In this document: positions 38,989-54,894 of the stretch, in pieces
Layout: every line of letters starts with the position of its first letter
How positions within the stretch are numbered: the first letter of the stretch is position 1
Assembly (NCBI RefSeq): GCF_024494575.1
Contig: NZ_JANHDO010000001.1
Span: 186,001 to 250,000 of the forward strand
Origin: Halorubrum salinum
Lineage (GTDB): Archaea; Halobacteriota; Halobacteria; Halobacteriales; Haloferacaceae
Reading direction: 5' to 3'
Length of the DNA: 64,000 nucleotides
Program-made: the position numbers and the translations under genes
The notes under the pieces: generated by a model
The model's database searches: none
What the model saw: the letters and a program-made list of their open reading frames with translations, nothing else
What the model was told of the DNA's origin: nothing

Positions 38989-39456
38989 CTCGGTTCCACA
39001 CTCGCTGTTTCACGCCCGTTCCGAACCCATCGGTTTCCCCTCGAAACCGCCTGACTGCATCGGTATGTCTCTGCTAGTGACCACTTTCACTTCGCTACCT
39101 GTGCAGACGGTGCGCGAGAAACCGATCTCAACACGAACTGCTCGGAAGTGGTGGCTCGGTCGAAACCCATCGTCACAAGGGGCTCAGTGGGGGTAACACG
39201 TCGTCATGGCCACCATGGACAAGTAACGGATTGACGGATATAAACTGCCCGTGATTCATTCCACTGCTTTGTTGAACAGGGGTGTTCCGACAGCTCGTTC
39301 AGGTGCTACCAATACTGTGCGCGAATCGGCTAACTCCCAGTCGGTTAGGCTGGGTTGGAGTGGCAGCTACAGCAGTAAACGAAGGCTATTGAGAATGCAG
39401 TATTGCTCCGTAGCGATCATAGAAACCACCATGTTTCAGCACCGTCTTCGAGAAGT
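38989..39456. other. Gene-poor left edge of the accessory island
   Basis: No convincing gene is seen. The stretch contains the left copy of the direct repeat (39184-39215), an A/T-rich patch GATATAAA at about 39237 and a TTTGTTGAAC at 39268 that resembles the insertion-sequence ends found elsewhere in the island. Base composition drops in GC compared with the aldo/keto reductase gene. Short open frames here have no family likeness and probably are remnants. Confidence 0.5.
39184..39215 (+). repeat. Island-flanking direct repeat, left copy
   Basis: Thirty-two bases including TGGGGGTAACACGTCGTCA match 56894-56924 with one extra G and one T/C change. Weaker similarity continues for about 45 bases. 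The two copies bracket 17.7 kb of accessory sequence and a shortened third copy lies at 45364-45381. Confidence 0.75.
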
Positions 39457-39879
39457 ATGAGTAATAATCAGGTGACGTTTGGATTCGTCTGTGTTCAGAA
39501 CGCCGGGCGGAGTCAAATGTCTGCCGCCTTCGCAGAACGGGAGCGACAGCGTCGGAGATTAGAGGATGAGGTACAGATACTCACCGGCGGCACCCATCCC
39601 GCAGACGAAGTCCATCCGGAAGTCGTCGACGTGATGCAGGAACTCGACATCGACCTTTCGGATCACGTCCCGAAAGAGGTATCCACGGCTGCGTTAAACG
39701 AATGTGATGTCGTCCTGACGATGGGCTGTTCGACGTTAGAGCTGGACGCCGACGTCGAGGTTCGCGACTGGGCGCTCGATGACCCACACAATCAGGATAT
39801 TGACCGCGTGCGAGAGATTCGCGACGAGATCGAGGGGCGCGTCATCGACCTTTTCGACGAGTTCGTTGGCGAGCAGTAA
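39457..39879 (+). CDS. arsC: Arsenate reductase / low-molecular-weight phosphatase-like ArsC
   Basis: 140 residues from the ATG at 39457. The phosphatase loop CVQNAGRSQ (C-x5-R) is at residues 10-18, and DWALDDPHNQD near 105 holds the general-acid Asp. A further Cys lies in MGCSTLEL. The layout is that of thioredoxin-coupled ArsC, which reduces arsenate to arsenite in the cytosol. It is about 1 kb from arsR and arsD but not in the same operon. A plain protein phosphatase is less likely given the neighbours. Confidence 0.85.
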   Translation: MSNNQVTFGFVCVQNAGRSQMSAAFAERERQRRRLEDEVQILTGGTHPADEVHPEVVDVMQELDIDLSDHVPKEVSTAALNECDVVLTMGCSTLELDADVEVRDWALDDPHNQDIDRVREIRDEIEGRVIDLFDEFVGEQ

Positions 39880-40243
39880 CCTCGCCTAATTATCAGCGGT
39901 ACCTGTAGACACGATCGTCTGCCGCTGGTAGAAGCACTCAGCACTTCTGGCCCCCTATAACTTCGACGTGAGATTCGTTCAGTCCCATCACAGGCCGGTT
40001 CGGGCTTCGCGTTGATGTCCGCTCGCACCGCTCAGTGAGTCATCGATATGCTGTTTTACAGCCCTCTCAATCGTCTCTAGCCGGCCGTAGCTTCGGGTTA
40101 CAATTCAGTGGTACCTCGACCGTCAGAAAGCTGTTCGAATGCCGACTACTTAGGATCTACCCGATGACGGTCGTGACAATCGGAATCGCTGTCGGTGTAC
40201 TGTTCAAAGCCGTCTTCCCCGGTCTATTCTGTACTGGGACTTT
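39880..40243. other. Spacer between arsC and arsR, probable gene remnants
   Basis: No intact gene found. A hydrophobic frame near 40164 (TVVTIGIAVGVLFKAVFPGLF) looks like a membrane helix and could be the relic of a transporter, but it has no other support and runs into antisense arsR sequence. The rest shows no feature I recognise. Confidence 0.35.
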
Positions 40244-40639
40244 TCACAGCGATCGCGACCCGTCGAGCGCGACGAGTACGGCGCTTGCCCGCGGCGTGGC
40301 GCGATACATCCGCCACTTCCCCTCTTTCCGCCGCGTGACGAGGCCGGCGTCGGTAAGTTGTGAGAGGGCGTGACTGATTGCGCTGTCGCTCACGTCCAAG
40401 AGCGGCGAGAGTTCACAGACGCACAGCTCGTCGTCGTCGGCCGCGTGGAGCATCCGGACAATCTTGTACCGCGTCTCGTTGCCGAGCGCCGACAGCAGTT
40501 CGATATCGGTCTCCAGATCGGATCCGCCGATGCTCTCGTTCAGTTCTTCCAACTCCGCTAACCGGTCGGCGAGGTCTTCGTCTGTACAGGAGCCGCACTC
40601 GTCGGCGACGTACCGCTGTAAACGCTCGGTCGATGACAT
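40244..40639 (-). CDS. arsR: ArsR-family metalloregulatory repressor
   Basis: 131 residues. The winged helix has LLSALGNETRYKIVRMLH, and the arsenite-sensing helix carries ELCVCELSPLLDVSDSAISHALSQL, with the ELCVC(D/E)L motif of classical ArsR. An additional CGSC pair is present near residue 15. Arsenite binding releases the repressor from DNA. The gene is divergent from arsD/arsA with a 329-base gap, which should hold its operators. An A/T patch about 26 bases before its ATG fits a leaderless transcript. Confidence 0.9.
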   Translation of the reverse strand: MSSTERLQRYVADECGSCTDEDLADRLAELEELNESIGGSDLETDIELLSALGNETRYKIVRMLHAADDDELCVCELSPLLDVSDSAISHALSQLTDAGLVTRRKEGKWRMYRATPRASAVLVALDGSRSL

Positions 40640-40968: not shown

Positions 40969-41298
40969 ATGACCGAACTCATCCTGTACGAAGAAGCGAT
41001 GTGTTGCTCAACCGGCGTCTGCGGTCCCGACCCCGACGACGAACTCGTCGAGGTCAGCGCGGCGCTCGACCAACTCGAAGACGCGTTCGATGATCTCGAG
41101 GTCAATCGGGCGAACATGCAGCACAACATCGAGCAGTTCCTCGAAACGCAGCGGATCTACGACCGCGTGCAGGAAGATGGCTCGTCGATTCTCCCGATCA
41201 CGGTCGTCGACAACGAGATCGTCGCCGAGGGCGAGTACCTCTCGTACGACGAACTGACTGCGGCTATCGAGGAGAGCCCAACGCCACAGGAGGCCTAA
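40969..41298 (+). CDS. arsD: ArsD arsenic metallochaperone
   Basis: 109 residues from the ATG at 40969; the first residues (MTELILYEEAMCCSTGVCG) align with the E. coli ArsD start, so the in-frame ATG at 40912 is less likely. The CC..C triad that binds arsenite and hands it to ArsA is intact (Cys 12, 13 and 18 of the family). A thioredoxin-like fold follows with SSILPITVVDNEIV. It starts an operon with arsA three bases further on. Confidence 0.92.
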   Translation: MTELILYEEAMCCSTGVCGPDPDDELVEVSAALDQLEDAFDDLEVNRANMQHNIEQFLETQRIYDRVQEDGSSILPITVVDNEIVAEGEYLSYDELTAAIEESPTPQEA

Positions 41299-41301
41299 CG
41301 A

Positions 41302-43242
41302 ATGGCACAATCACAGTCGACAGCGACAGGTGCGCGTGATGTCGTCGAACCGAGCGGCGACGAGACGGAATTCGTCTTCTTCAGCGGGAAGGGCGGCGTC
41401 GGAAAGAGCACCGTGAGCTGTGCGACCGCGACGTGGCTCGCTGACAACGACTACGAGACGTTGCTAGTGACCACCGACCCAGCGCCGAACCTCTCGGACA
41501 TCTTCGGTCAAACCATCGGCCACGAGGTCACCGCGATCGACGGAGTCGAAAACCTCTCAGCGATCGAGATCGACCCGGACACCGCAGCCGAGGAGTACCG
41601 ACAGGAAACGATCGAGCCCATGCGGGAACTACTCGGCGAGGAAGAGATCCAGACGGTCGAAGAGCAGCTCAATAGCCCTTGCGTCGAGGAGATCGCCGCC
41701 TTCGACAACTTCGTCGACTTCATGGACAGTCCTGAGTACGATGTCGTCGTCTTCGACACGGCACCGACAGGCCACACCATCCGGCTGATGGAGCTCCCCT
41801 CCGACTGGAACGCCGAACTCGAAAAGGGTGGGTCGACCTGTATCGGTCCGGCCGCCTCGATGGAAGACAAAAAGCAAGACTACGAGCGCGCCATCGACAC
41901 CCTACAGGACAATGAGCGCACCTCGTTCGCGTTCGTCGGCAAGCCGGAGGACTCCTCGATCGACGAGATCGAACGTAGTGCGAGCGATCTCGGCGAACTC
42001 GGTATCGAGTCCCAGCTGTTGATCCTCAACGGCTACCTCCCCGAGTCGGTGTGCGACGATCCCTTCTTCGAGGGAAAACGCGCGGACGAACAGGCCGTCA
42101 TCGAGCGGGCCCGCGAGGAGTTCGATGCGGACGCGACGGCGACGTATCCGCTTCAGCCCGGCGAGATAGCCGGGATCGACCTGCTCGCGGACGTGGGCGG
42201 TGTCCTCTACGACGGCGCGGAAGCGACCGTCGATGTCGGGGCCGCGACCGACGTGGACGCCGACGGCGCGGTCGACTTCGACTCGATGGCGGATGCCGAC
42301 GCGGTCGTGGATCAACTGACGCCGGGTGACGAGACGCAGTACCTCTTTTTCACCGGCAAGGGTGGTGTCGGAAAGAGCACGCTCGCTTCGACGGCGGCGA
42401 CGAAGTTGGCCGAGGCGGGCCACGAAACGCTCGTCGTCACGACCGACCCGGCCGCGCACTTAGAGGACATCTTCGGCGAGCCAGTGGGCCACGAGCCCAC
42501 CCCGGTCGGTCAAGAGAACCTCGACGCGGCGCGTATCGACCAAGAGAAAGCGCTCGCGGAGTACCGCGAGCAGGTCCTCGACCACGTCACCGAAATGTAC
42601 GAGGACAAAGAAGACACCCAGATCGACGTCGACGCTGCGATCGCAAACGTCGAAGAGGAACTGGAGTCTCCGTGTGCCGAAGAGATGGCCGCGCTCGAGA
42701 AGTTCGTGAGCTACTTCGACGAGGACGGCTATGATATCGTCGTCTTTGACACGGCTCCGACGGGCCACACCCTCCGACTGCTCGAACTACCTTCCGACTG
42801 GAAGGGGTTCATGGACCTCGGATCGCTGACGAAGGGCGCTGCCCCCGCGAAGGGCGACCAGTACGACGAGGTCATCGAGACTATGAAAGACCCCGAGCGG
42901 AGCACGTTCGCGTTCGTGATGTACCCCGAATACACGCCCATGATGGAGGCGTATCGGGCCGCCGCCGACCTCGAAGATCAGGTCGGCATCGAGACTTCGC
43001 TGGTCGTCGCTAACTACCTGCTTCCCGAAGAGTACGGCGACAACGCCTTCTTCGCGAACCGACGCGCCCAGCAGGCGCAGTATCTCGACGAGATCCGCGA
43101 TCGGTTCGACGCGCCGCTGATGTTGGCACCGCTCCGGCGGGACGAACCGGTCGGGCTTGACGAACTCAGCGCCTTCGGCGAGGAGATTACCGGGCTCGCG
43201 GACGTTGCCGAGGCTGACGTACCGGAGGTGACTCCCTCGTGA
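41302..43242 (+). CDS. arsA: ArsA arsenite-stimulated ATPase, duplicated form
   Basis: 646 residues. Two homologous halves each hold GKGGVGKST (residues about 30 and 350), LLVTTDPA/VVTTDPA, and VFDTAPTGHTLRL-type signal-transduction motifs. Cysteines occur at SPCVEEI in half one and SPCAEEM in half two, with others in CDDPF. The duplicated ArsA drives arsenite efflux in bacteria together with ArsB. No arsB or acr3 is in the window; Halobacterium NRC-1 has a similar arsADRC cluster without adjacent arsB. The stop overlaps the next gene (GTGA). Confidence 0.95.
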   Translation: MAQSQSTATGARDVVEPSGDETEFVFFSGKGGVGKSTVSCATATWLADNDYETLLVTTDPAPNLSDIFGQTIGHEVTAIDGVENLSAIEIDPDTAAEEYRQETIEPMRELLGEEEIQTVEEQLNSPCVEEIAAFDNFVDFMDSPEYDVVVFDTAPTGHTIRLMELPSDWNAELEKGGSTCIGPAASMEDKKQDYERAIDTLQDNERTSFAFVGKPEDSSIDEIERSASDLGELGIESQLLILNGYLPESVCDDPFFEGKRADEQAVIERAREEFDADATATYPLQPGEIAGIDLLADVGGVLYDGAEATVDVGAATDVDADGAVDFDSMADADAVVDQLTPGDETQYLFFTGKGGVGKSTLASTAATKLAEAGHETLVVTTDPAAHLEDIFGEPVGHEPTPVGQENLDAARIDQEKALAEYREQVLDHVTEMYEDKEDTQIDVDAAIANVEEELESPCAEEMAALEKFVSYFDEDGYDIVVFDTAPTGHTLRLLELPSDWKGFMDLGSLTKGAAPAKGDQYDEVIETMKDPERSTFAFVMYPEYTPMMEAYRAAADLEDQVGIETSLVVANYLLPEEYGDNAFFANRRAQQAQYLDEIRDRFDAPLMLAPLRRDEPVGLDELSAFGEEITGLADVAEADVPEVTPS

Positions 43243-43655
43243 GCGACGCACAGGATGTAGACGACGCGGCCGAGGGCAGCGTGGCCGTATCCGATGAGGA
43301 AGACGTAGAAGACAACGTCGAGGCGGCGCTCCGCGAGTTCCTCAACACGCTCGGTGAGTCTGAGACGTATCAGCGGTTCGTCGCGGCCGACGAGGCGCTA
43401 CAGGACGATGACGACGCGATGGCACTGATCCGGGAGTACCAGCGAAAGCAACAACAGATGCAGCGCGGCGACTTCGACGGGTCGGTGATGGCCGAGCTGA
43501 AGCAGCTCCAGACGGAGATGTCGAACAACGAGACGATCCAGCGTCAGCAGGCCGCACAGACGGAGCTGGTCGAACTGCTCCAGCGGACGAACGACGCCAT
43601 CAGCGACGAGATCGGCGAGGAGTTCGCGCGGTCCACCGGAGGTGGGTGCTGTTGA
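43239..43655 (+). CDS. YlbF/YmcA-family helical protein with C-terminal Cys pair
   Basis: 138 residues, GTG start overlapping the arsA stop, so coupled. Acidic N-terminus, then the YlbF-type helices AALREFLNTLGESETYQRFVAADEALQ, ALIREYQRKQQQMQ and LKQLQTEMSNNETIQ. The end is GGGCC. In Bacillus, YlbF and YmcA sit in a complex holding iron-sulfur clusters through C-terminal cysteines. Here the tail and the operon suggest that it binds arsenite or protects thiols, which is inference. The next gene overlaps its stop. Confidence 0.8.
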   Translation: MSDAQDVDDAAEGSVAVSDEEDVEDNVEAALREFLNTLGESETYQRFVAADEALQDDDDAMALIREYQRKQQQMQRGDFDGSVMAELKQLQTEMSNNETIQRQQAAQTELVELLQRTNDAISDEIGEEFARSTGGGCC

Positions 43656-43870
43656 GCGCTTCCGGTCAGGACGCCAGCGAGTCCGAAGTGACGGACGACG
43701 AGGTCGTCGCGGCCGCCGAGGCGCTCGGTGAGGAGCTCGCGGCGGCGAAAGAGTCCTCCTCGGAGTTTGCATTCACCACGATGGTGATGCAGTGTAACGA
43801 GGCGATCGGAGACGAGACCAGAATCGACTACGGCAGCGTCTGCGGTGCCGACGACGACAGCTGCTGTTAG
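43652..43870 (+). CDS. Small Cys-tailed protein of the ars operon
   Basis: 72 residues from a TTG overlapping the previous stop (TTGA); a GTG at 43646 is an alternative. Acidic helix (DDEVVAAAEALGEELAAAKESS), then FTTMVMQCNEAIGDET, and a tail VCGADDDSCC. Cysteines are at one internal position and in the final C-x6-CC. I do not recognise the family. Coupled translation after arsA and the YlbF-like gene implies a role in arsenic handling. Confidence 0.7.
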   Translation: MSASGQDASESEVTDDEVVAAAEALGEELAAAKESSSEFAFTTMVMQCNEAIGDETRIDYGSVCGADDDSCC

Positions 43871-44093
43871 CGGAGATCGAGCAAGCAAGCCACCTCCGGC
43901 AGCCTCCCCGACTGGAGTTCGTCAAACAGCGTGATGGCATGATGCTGGTTATACTCTCTGTATCAGCATGGCTTCGAAAACCTCCCACCGTCTGAGAGTC
44001 TCAACAGGACCAGTGCTCATAGGTTGGTAAGAGTATGTGACAGTATCGTCTCAATAATCTTTATTGCGAGCTGCTCACAATCCGCTACTAACA

Positions 44094-44618
44094 ATGGCAA
44101 CCAGAGAAGCAAACTGGGACACTCCTCTCGGTACGGGTGGTGAAGTATTCGAACTCCTCGGAAACGCCCGCAAAGCATGGATCTATACGTATATCCACCA
44201 TCATCCATCGACAACAATTCAAGATCTAGTTGAGGCCCTTGATCTTCCGCAGCGAACGGTCTACGATTATATCGACGATCTCGAAGGTGCGGACTTTATC
44301 CACCAGTCAAACGCCGGCCGCCCCGCAGAATACACGGCTCGTGACATCAAACTCCAGTTGACGGATGGTGACACCGAACGGCAGATCACACCTGAGTTAG
44401 TTGAAGCGGTTGCTCGACGAACGCGGGACGAAGATATCGATACGTACATCGATCGGCATGGCTTGGACGGGCTCGCCGTCGCGCTAGAATATACTCGTGA
44501 ATACGTCGATGGATCCGTCACACATCAGATTATGGCGCGAGAGCAAGAGCTCTCACCGCTCGAAGCAGGCGTTATTCTGGACGCACTCCGGCCTGTCGTT
44601 GAGACTGACTCGGAATGA
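44094..44618 (+). CDS. Winged-helix regulator/antitoxin-like protein
   Basis: 174 residues from the ATG at 44094, with an A/T-rich AATAATCTTTATT about 35 bases upstream as promoter. The DNA-binding domain spans about residues 25-80: ARKAWIYTYIHHHPSTTIQDLVEALDLPQRTVYDYIDDLEG. The C-terminal half is helical and probably binds the PIN partner or dimerises (EAVARRTRDEDIDTYIDRHG). It overlaps the PIN gene by ATGA. This layout is found repeatedly in haloarchaea (DUF7437-like). Confidence 0.75.
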   Translation: MATREANWDTPLGTGGEVFELLGNARKAWIYTYIHHHPSTTIQDLVEALDLPQRTVYDYIDDLEGADFIHQSNAGRPAEYTARDIKLQLTDGDTERQITPELVEAVARRTRDEDIDTYIDRHGLDGLAVALEYTREYVDGSVTHQIMAREQELSPLEAGVILDALRPVVETDSE

Positions 44619-45100
44619 TACATGAGGACACCGTCGTTTTCATCGACTCGTCCGTCCTCATCAGTTGTGGCCGGCGTGGGAGTACACGGTTTCAGGCGCT
44701 CGCTCGGGAAGCTCGCCAGCGTGATACCGTCTTTCGGATTTCGCCGCAGGTGTATGCAGAGGTGGCTGGAGATTCCTCTCTCGATGAGTACACAACTGGT
44801 GATTCTGCTGTTGAAAAAGCACTCCAAGAGGGATGGATGAAGGTCACAGAAAGCCCGTCCTATTCGGACTCGGATATCTCAACAGTGATGGATCAGGCAC
44901 GGAGTTTCATCGCAAGTGCCAGCGATCGGTCGGAAGATATCGTCGAAAAAGCGGATACGGAACTTGTCGGGTTGGCGCTTGAACTGCTTCTTACTGATAC
45001 TGCAGATCGAGTTATACGCGTAACGAACGACATTCCACTCGGCAAAGCAGCTGAATCGTTACTTCCACAGTATGGATTCGACAACGAACAAATCACGTGA
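44615..45100 (+). CDS. PIN-domain ribonuclease/toxin-like protein
   Basis: 161 residues. The PIN acidic residues are seen in VVFIDSSVLIS (Asp near 10), PQVYAEVAGD, EKADTELVGLALELL and VIRVTNDIP. The fold is that of VapC-type endoribonucleases, which cleave tRNA or rRNA. It is translationally coupled to the upstream HTH gene, like a toxin with its antitoxin. The length is slightly above typical VapC (about 130). Activity is inferred. Confidence 0.75.
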   Translation: MIHEDTVVFIDSSVLISCGRRGSTRFQALAREARQRDTVFRISPQVYAEVAGDSSLDEYTTGDSAVEKALQEGWMKVTESPSYSDSDISTVMDQARSFIASASDRSEDIVEKADTELVGLALELLLTDTADRVIRVTNDIPLGKAAESLLPQYGFDNEQIT

Positions 45101-53892: not shown

Positions 53893-54894
53893 ATGCAGGT
53901 GACGATGGTCGAGGGTATCTTCGAAGCCCTCCGAATCGGTGTCGGGTTCCTCTGGACGGCGGCGTGGGCGATCATTATGGGCCTCACGATCACGAGTCTC
54001 GTCCAGGTCTACGTCTCCAAGGAGAATGGCACAGGTGCTGGGCGACGGTGATCTGAGTGGGCTCACCAAGGCGACCGCGTTCGGCGCGGCGAGCAGCGGC
54101 TGCAGTTTCGGCGCTGTCGCTATCGGGAAGGGGCTGTTCAAGAAGAGAGCACACGCGGTCAACTTTCTCGCGTTCATGTTCGCGTCGACGAATCTGATCG
54201 TCGAACTCGGGTTGATGATTCTGATTCTGTTGGGCTGGGAGTTCTTGGTCGCAGAGTTACTCGGTGGACTCATCCTCATCGCCGTGATGGCCGTCATCGT
54301 CCACTTCACGGTCCCGAAGAATCTCTCCGACGAGGTCCGGGAGACGCTCAAATTCTGCTCGGAGGGCTGTATGTAGACCTACCGCCAGGAGACGTCGAGT
54401 CGCGGCGGGTGGCGTGACGAGTTGCTGTCGTGGGGTGGCTGGTACAAAGTCGGGAATCAGTACCGCAAGGAGTGGTCGATGATCTGGAAGGACATCGTCG
54501 CTGGCTTCCTGATTTCTGGGTTCGTCATCGTCTTCGTCCCGCAGTGGGTGTGGAACACGCTGTTCATCCAGGGCGATGGCCTGCTCGTGACTGCCGAGAA
54601 CGCGATTATGGGTGTCACCATCGCCGTCCTCAGTTTCGCTGGCATATGGGTAACGTCCCGTTCGCCGTCGCGCCGTGGGGCGGTGGCGTCAGCTTCGCCG
54701 GGATCATCGCGTTCGTCTACGCTGACCTCATCACGATTCCCGTGCTGAACGTCTACCGGAAGTACTACGGCTGGAAGATCATGCTGTACATCCTTGGCGT
54801 CTTTCTCGTGACGATGGCGTTCACCGGCTTCCTCATGGAGCTGCTGTTCGATGCTGGCGTGAAGGAAATCACCTCGAACCGCGATCTAATTTAG
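53893..54894 (+). pseudogene. Broken DUF318/YraQ-type permease with YHS-like motif
   Basis: One permease of the COG0701 type is spread over two frames. From the ATG at 53893, frame 1 runs to about 54028 (GVGFLWTAAWAIIMG), then frame 2 continues with MAQVLGDGDLSGLTKATAFGAASSGCSFGA, an in-frame TAG stands at 54374 right after FCSEGCM where a Glu codon is expected, frame 2 goes on (GWRDELLSWGGWYKVGNQYRKEWSM), and frame 1 resumes near 54645 (GNVPFAVAPWGGGVSFAG) to the stop at 54894. Two frameshifts and one nonsense codon make it a pseudogene. Family members transport arsenicals or sulfur compounds or metals. Confidence 0.8.

Follow-up and report, generated by a model that had tools for sequence, protein, structure and literature searches.

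The arsenic-resistance locus considered here lies in a stretch of 64,000 nucleotides of the Halorubrum salinum genome (the whole of which is called 'the window' below), and consists of an operon of four genes, arsD-arsA-hcsL-hcsS, with a divergent arsR gene on its upstream side and, beyond that, the remains of a permease gene and an arsC-like gene:

39454 to 39879, plus strand: arsC-like gene for a low-molecular-weight phosphatase family protein, a putative arsenate reductase (PF01451, E 1.8e-28)
40095 to 40229, plus strand: C-terminal remnant of an ArsP-family (PF03773) permease (tblastn against the intact H. ezzemoulense permease)
40244 to 40639, minus strand: arsR, divergent repressor of the ArsR/SmtB family (NF033788; 98% identical to H. 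ezzemoulense ArsR)
40969 to 41298, plus strand: arsD, As(III) metallochaperone (NF033727, 111.7 bits, above the cut-off; Cys12, Cys13 and Cys18 present, C-terminal cysteine pairs absent)
41302 to 43242, plus strand: arsA, two-domain ATPase of the haloarchaeal type (NF041417, 1168 bits)
43239 to 43655, plus strand: hcsL, protein of the YlbF/YmcA fold with a C-terminal GGGCC tail (NF041416, 164.5 bits)
43646 (GTG) or 43652 (TTG) to 43870, plus strand: hcsS, small helical protein with the tail VCGADDDSCC (NF041415, 91.6 bits)

The hcsL gene starts at a GTG (43239) and overlaps the arsA stop by 4 nucleotides, and two starts can be considered for hcsS: the TTG at 43652, which gives 72 residues and a 4-nucleotide overlap with hcsL, and the GTG at 43646 (the choice of RefSeq in relatives), which gives 74 residues and an overlap of 10 nucleotides. 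An initial annotation had described two coupled small genes after arsA, with overlapping starts and the tails GGGCC and VCGADDDSCC, and had given the second protein 72 residues; the description is accurate, and the length is that obtained from the TTG start. It overlooked the permease remnant, which is 58% identical over 45 amino acids to the intact H. ezzemoulense permease used as reference and at whose place five close relatives have kept an intact arsR-permease pair. The profile similarity of the arsC-like product to thioredoxin/glutaredoxin-type arsenate reductases is sub-threshold. Comparison with four relatives places both hcsL and hcsS under purifying selection (dN/dS 0.09-0.30). Elsewhere in the window a second ArsP-family (PF03773) permease gene, at 54053-54840, is broken by an in-frame TAG and split into two frames, and at 44064-45100 a regulator of the TrmB/DUF7437 type overlaps a downstream open reading frame of 161 amino acids, PIN-like by eye and with no Pfam match, with which it possibly forms a toxin-antitoxin-type pair.

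Neither hcsL nor hcsS is a new gene. Both products score above the curated cut-offs (140 and 55 bits, respectively) of NCBIfam families that already bear the ‘halo-CC-star’ names HcsL (NF041416) and HcsS (NF041415), and any claim of novelty for the genes themselves was dropped on that account. These families carry names without functions, and a literature search found no paper that uses either name. HcsL is YlbF-like by Pfam (PF06133, E 5e-17), as the initial annotation had proposed, and its profile also matches the RicA and RicF structures (E 4e-7). The AlphaFold2 model of the protein (pLDDT 88.7), in which the tail beyond residue 132 is unstructured, retrieves 6prh, 6prk and 2pih (RicA/RicF) in Foldseek at probability 1.00, with TM scores of 0.63-0.68 on the query, so that HcsL displays both the PF06133 match and the five-helix fold of the YlbF/YmcA superfamily. 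The model of HcsS comprises two helices followed by a low-confidence tail, and a fold search with it returned no match; its profile aligns to the C-terminal part of a haloarchaeal YlbF paralogue and of HcsL itself (hhalign 93%, E 2.7e-7 on a single-comparison basis). On the strength of that alignment HcsS can be read, with moderate support, as a shortened YlbF relative that has kept the last helical hairpin. The NCBIfam and Pfam profiles detected no ArsD (thioredoxin-like) domain in either protein.

The association of the pair with ArsA was followed through 292 haloarchaeal genomes, in which HcsL is represented by 59 copies in 53 genomes (58 of the copies above the family cut-off). All 59 lie directly upstream of HcsS, and 57 lie directly downstream of the haloarchaeal ArsA (ArsA_halo) on the same strand; the two exceptions have, respectively, a truncated ArsA in front and an ArsA fragment about 650 nucleotides away. 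HcsS without any HcsL was met three times, in what seem to be remnant or stray copies, and a divergent ArsA_halo without HcsL and HcsS was encountered once. The initial annotation had suggested that the two might be additional chaperones and had asked how often both genes follow arsA in Halobacteria; these counts support the pair as an added component specific to ars operons, and the genes are not equally common outside such operons. The order arsD-arsA-hcsL-hcsS recurs in all 11 plasmids inspected, pNRC100 included, where RefSeq likewise calls the genes hcsL and hcsS (11 of 11). The 4-nucleotide overlap of arsA with hcsL was found in all 60 haloarchaeal copies measured, and the 10-nucleotide overlap of hcsL with hcsS in 61 of 66, when the first possible hcsS start is taken. 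Distances of HcsL correlate with those of HcsS (0.60) and of ArsA (0.62), a covariation of which shared ancestry explains part. An arsC-like low-molecular-weight phosphatase gene lies within 8 kb of 39 of the 56 cassette loci. At two plasmid loci (L036 and L039), genes for Acr3, ArsP, ArsM, cupin, RidA and low-molecular-weight phosphatase proteins vary around the constant four-gene core. The lone divergent ArsA_halo (L157, 1726-9644) adjoins, by eye, genes for a molybdopterin oxidoreductase, a ferredoxin-like subunit and a TorD-like protein, possibly an arsenic redox cluster.

Both proteins end in cysteines, and the conservation of these residues bears out the expectation raised from the window alone. 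Every intact HcsL copy (66 of 66) ends in GG(G/E)CC. HcsS ends in CC in 63 of 70 copies and in cysteine in 68 of 70 (a few having a single terminal cysteine), and the tail can be written as C-x4-6-CC in 61 of 70; a third cysteine is present in 66 of 68 and a fourth in 65 of 68, one cysteine lying 4-6 residues upstream of the terminal pair and another in the last helix in nearly all copies. Cysteine makes up 0.73% of residues in the likely genes of the window, so that a CC end is expected at about 5e-5 per gene, and hcsL is the only gene ending in CC among the 43 likely genes of at least 100 amino acids (hcsS falls below this size cut). Neither tail is a product of chance. The start of HcsS lies, in most copies, inside the GGG TGC TGT TGA end of HcsL, which places a DNA-level constraint on the CC codons of the latter; where no such constraint applies the CC is still kept, both in HcsS, with varied codons, and in a YlbF paralogue that no gene overlaps, and two HcsL copies use TGT TGC instead.

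This paralogue limits what the cysteine pair can be taken to mean. Some match to the HcsL profile is present in 221 of the 292 genomes, and most of the weaker matches, below the HcsL cut-off, are to a YlbF protein encoded outside ars operons. It is homologous to HcsL over 114 positions (hhalign 99.4%), with its CC at the same aligned place, but the pair is followed by two or three further residues (a GGCCxD end) in all 21 proteins checked. A near-terminal CC is by itself no proof of an arsenic role, and the idea of the CC as an arsenic-specific mark was dropped; the motif belongs to the wider haloarchaeal YlbF family, and either predates the ars role or is independent of it. At one locus (L002, 36-1884) the paralogue, there ending in GGCCQD, adjoins genes for a MinD/ParA-like ATPase and a RadA/KaiC-like protein; a MinD-type neighbour was rejected as its general ATPase partner, being present at only 5 of 21 loci.

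The proteins that precede the pair in the operon appear fully equipped for metalloid handling. Aligned to 1F48, the ArsA of the window keeps three cysteines at the positions of C113, C172 and C422, the metalloid cysteines of R773 ArsA, and it thereby has the two ATPase domains and three As(III) cysteines that define the ATPase of an ArsAB pump; the ArsA motifs are kept in 64-65 of 65 haloarchaeal copies. ArsD retains the CCx4C motif (Cys12, Cys13 and Cys18) in all 64 haloarchaeal copies, and these residues form the site of chaperone function (PMC4562236, PMC12607644). With the cysteines of both proteins intact, the upstream arsenite path is complete.

The strongest new lead comes from the haloarchaeal ArsD, none of whose 64 copies carries a cysteine beyond CCx4C. 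Four of the five bacterial ArsD proteins compared, by contrast, have CC-x4-5-CC as their very last residues (GGCCGGDGCC, CCGGKTSCC and GCCSSRGCC are examples; L222 ArsD is without a tail), and the C-terminal pairs of R773 ArsD, Cys112-113 and Cys119-120, fit the same pattern by residue number. The bacterial tail is glycine-rich or polar and ends exactly in CC, features that recur in HcsL, with its GGGCC, and in HcsS, with its additional cysteine 4-6 residues upstream. In many bacterial ArsD proteins the tail is carried in cis, whereas in haloarchaea such tails are found on separate proteins and the ArsD body, with its CCx4C, is kept apart; the distribution suggests that the function of the ArsD tail has come to reside in HcsS and HcsL. 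The resemblance is specific, yet it is short and drawn from few bacterial examples, and may be coincidence. The C-terminal pairs of R773 ArsD are thought to be regulatory, acting in metalloid sensing, and not to be needed for chaperoning (PMC4562236), so that the Hcs pair, too, could conceivably act in regulation. Neither this contrast nor the catalogue names, the relation of HcsS to YlbF and the CC of the paralogue had been noticed in the initial annotation.

On balance, we consider it somewhat more likely than not that the haloarchaeal ArsD-ArsA system for arsenite and antimonite has HcsL and HcsS as accessory subunits, assembled into a heteromer like that of RicA and RicF, with tails that bind As(III) or Sb(III) for ArsA. 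The observations on which this reading is built are the structure of the operon, the near-obligate linkage to ArsA, the conservation of the tails, the fold and the absence of a tail from ArsD; we infer from them the heteromer, the binding of metalloid, the direction of its handoff and the existence of an export partner. The heteromer, modelled on RicA-RicF, would present flexible tails with terminal vicinal cysteines, and these would coordinate As(III) or Sb(III) as a tri-thiolate, through the C-x4-6-CC of HcsS and the CC of HcsL. Known As(III) sites of similar spacing are C12/C13/C18 of ArsD and C95/C96/C102 of A. ferrooxidans ArsR (PMC4562236). The tails would then perform in trans the task that a CC-x4-5-CC tail may have in cis in many bacterial ArsD proteins, either taking the metalloid from ArsA or holding it for ArsA during the ATPase cycle.

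The strongest competing explanation, which we nevertheless consider unlikely, is that the HcsL and HcsS tails hold an iron-sulfur cluster between them, as in RicA-RicF, and that the pair serves as a redox or arsenite sensor regulating ArsA or gene expression. The Bacillus precedent, to which the initial annotation had already appealed, is a real one: HcsL has the fold of RicA (YmcA) and RicF (YlbF), and a [4Fe-4S] cluster is held by C134 and C146 of RicF together with C141 of RicA, all of them close to the C-terminal ends (PMC6751060). The paralogue outside ars operons has the same kind of tail. However, RicAF alone cannot accept the cluster and needs RicT (PMC6751060), and no PSP1/RicT (PF04468) protein was detected in the H. 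salinum genome by a search in which six controls were positive. The functional cysteines of RicA and RicF are, moreover, spaced, whereas the HcsL tail offers two adjacent cysteines only, in a protein encoded in an ars operon; the authors of the same study were aware of no documented ligation of one cluster by vicinal cysteines in a protein (PMC6751060), with N2 of complex I a possible exception. It is the absence of RicT and the vicinal arrangement of the cysteines that make this alternative the less likely one.

The H. salinum genome contains no match to ArsB (PF02040) and no Acr3 above the family cut-off, the best score being 146.9 bits against 282.8, on another contig. The observation in the initial annotation that neither arsB nor acr3 is nearby stands for the window, with the qualification that this sub-threshold Acr3-like protein is encoded elsewhere in the genome. 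It is a member of the bile-acid-symporter family of 324 amino acids (L003, 1492-2463; contig C2, about 324174-325088), its gene is followed directly by a low-molecular-weight arsenate-reductase-like gene, and it could be the export partner in this genome, as a candidate chromosomal arsenite exporter.

Across the survey, Acr3 above a threshold of E 1e-60 was found in 15 of 53 cassette genomes and in 145 of the 239 others (Fisher p 2.7e-5), and Acr3 was abandoned as an obligatory partner. The trend reverses inside Halorubrum (7 of 20 versus 0 of 16), and it is accordingly not claimed that cassette and Acr3 exclude each other. Among the other 38 cassette genomes, 15 remain without any Acr3-like match at the looser threshold of 1e-5, and in at least eight of these neither an ArsP-family permease (1e-10) nor ArsB was detected, absences that in draft assemblies are not proof; the cassette of one of these eight is almost the same as the one on pNRC100. 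At 39 of 56 cassettes neither Acr3 nor ArsP lies within about 8 kb. A conserved, unlabelled membrane protein was also considered as a missing pump and set aside, since none with several predicted transmembrane segments recurs in more than three genera within that distance. A genome can thus retain the cassette without any of the known permeases.

Such genomes lend some weight to a further alternative, in which the pair acts as a stoichiometric buffer of As(III) or Sb(III), or passes As(III) on to the methyltransferase ArsM, with no part in efflux and with ArsA only coregulated. ArsM, for its part, is reported to protect Halobacterium NRC-1 (PMC1447603), and is encoded near 11 of 56 cassettes. 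Most cassettes, however, have no nearby ArsM, and ArsA and ArsD keep all of their cysteines for an ATP-driven handling that a passive buffer would not need; this explanation is accordingly held to be improbable.

The GGGCC end of HcsL also resembles the tails of eukaryotic Rab proteins, in which a C-terminal CC is a signal for lipid attachment, and a lipid anchor that keeps the pair, and ArsA with it, at the membrane beside an exporter would fit both the exact ending of the proteins at their cysteines and an ArsA that lacks a known channel. We know of no archaeal protein prenyltransferase, though, the YlbF paralogue has residues after its CC, and the conserved internal third cysteine of HcsS suits metal binding better, all of which leaves a lipid anchor very improbable. 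Least credible of all is the suggestion that the cysteines are a by-product of the HcsS start, which would force the CC of HcsL in a pair with some unrelated structural role for ArsA: the overlap is indeed present in most copies, but the pair of cysteines persists, as described above, where no overlap dictates it and where the codons differ.

If HcsL and HcsS do serve ArsA, a bolder extension may be entertained, tentatively and as a possibility that we would not call likely: that the pair is an adapter through which ArsA could power the detoxification of arsenite and antimonite in the absence of ArsB, Acr3 and ArsP, whether independently of any permease or through another one, the thiol tail of ArsD having been moved onto two YlbF-derived proteins. 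Such an adapter would supply the component still lacking from the ‘novel arsenite pump’ of Halobacterium NRC-1. The arsADRC region of pNRC100 in that organism has the same arsR and arsD-arsA-hcsL-hcsS order as the window. According to published work, deletion of the region raises arsenite sensitivity and the chromosomal arsB homologue is dispensable (PMC1447603, PMC3600143), and it was the need of resistance for the one and not the other that led to the proposal of a novel pump. The deletion is named there as arsADRC and not by hcsL or hcsS, and the review passages on the region list only arsA, arsD, arsR and arsC (and arsM and arsR2), with hcsL and hcsS unmentioned.

The resistance operon of NRC-1 holds two genes beyond those named in these accounts, both tied to arsA in almost all haloarchaea with this type of ArsA, and the pair bears on the question of how that organism pumps out arsenite. 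The links to the ArsD tail on the one hand, and to the RicA/RicF fold on the other, provide a testable idea: that a YlbF scaffold may have been reused in haloarchaea for the handling of metalloids.
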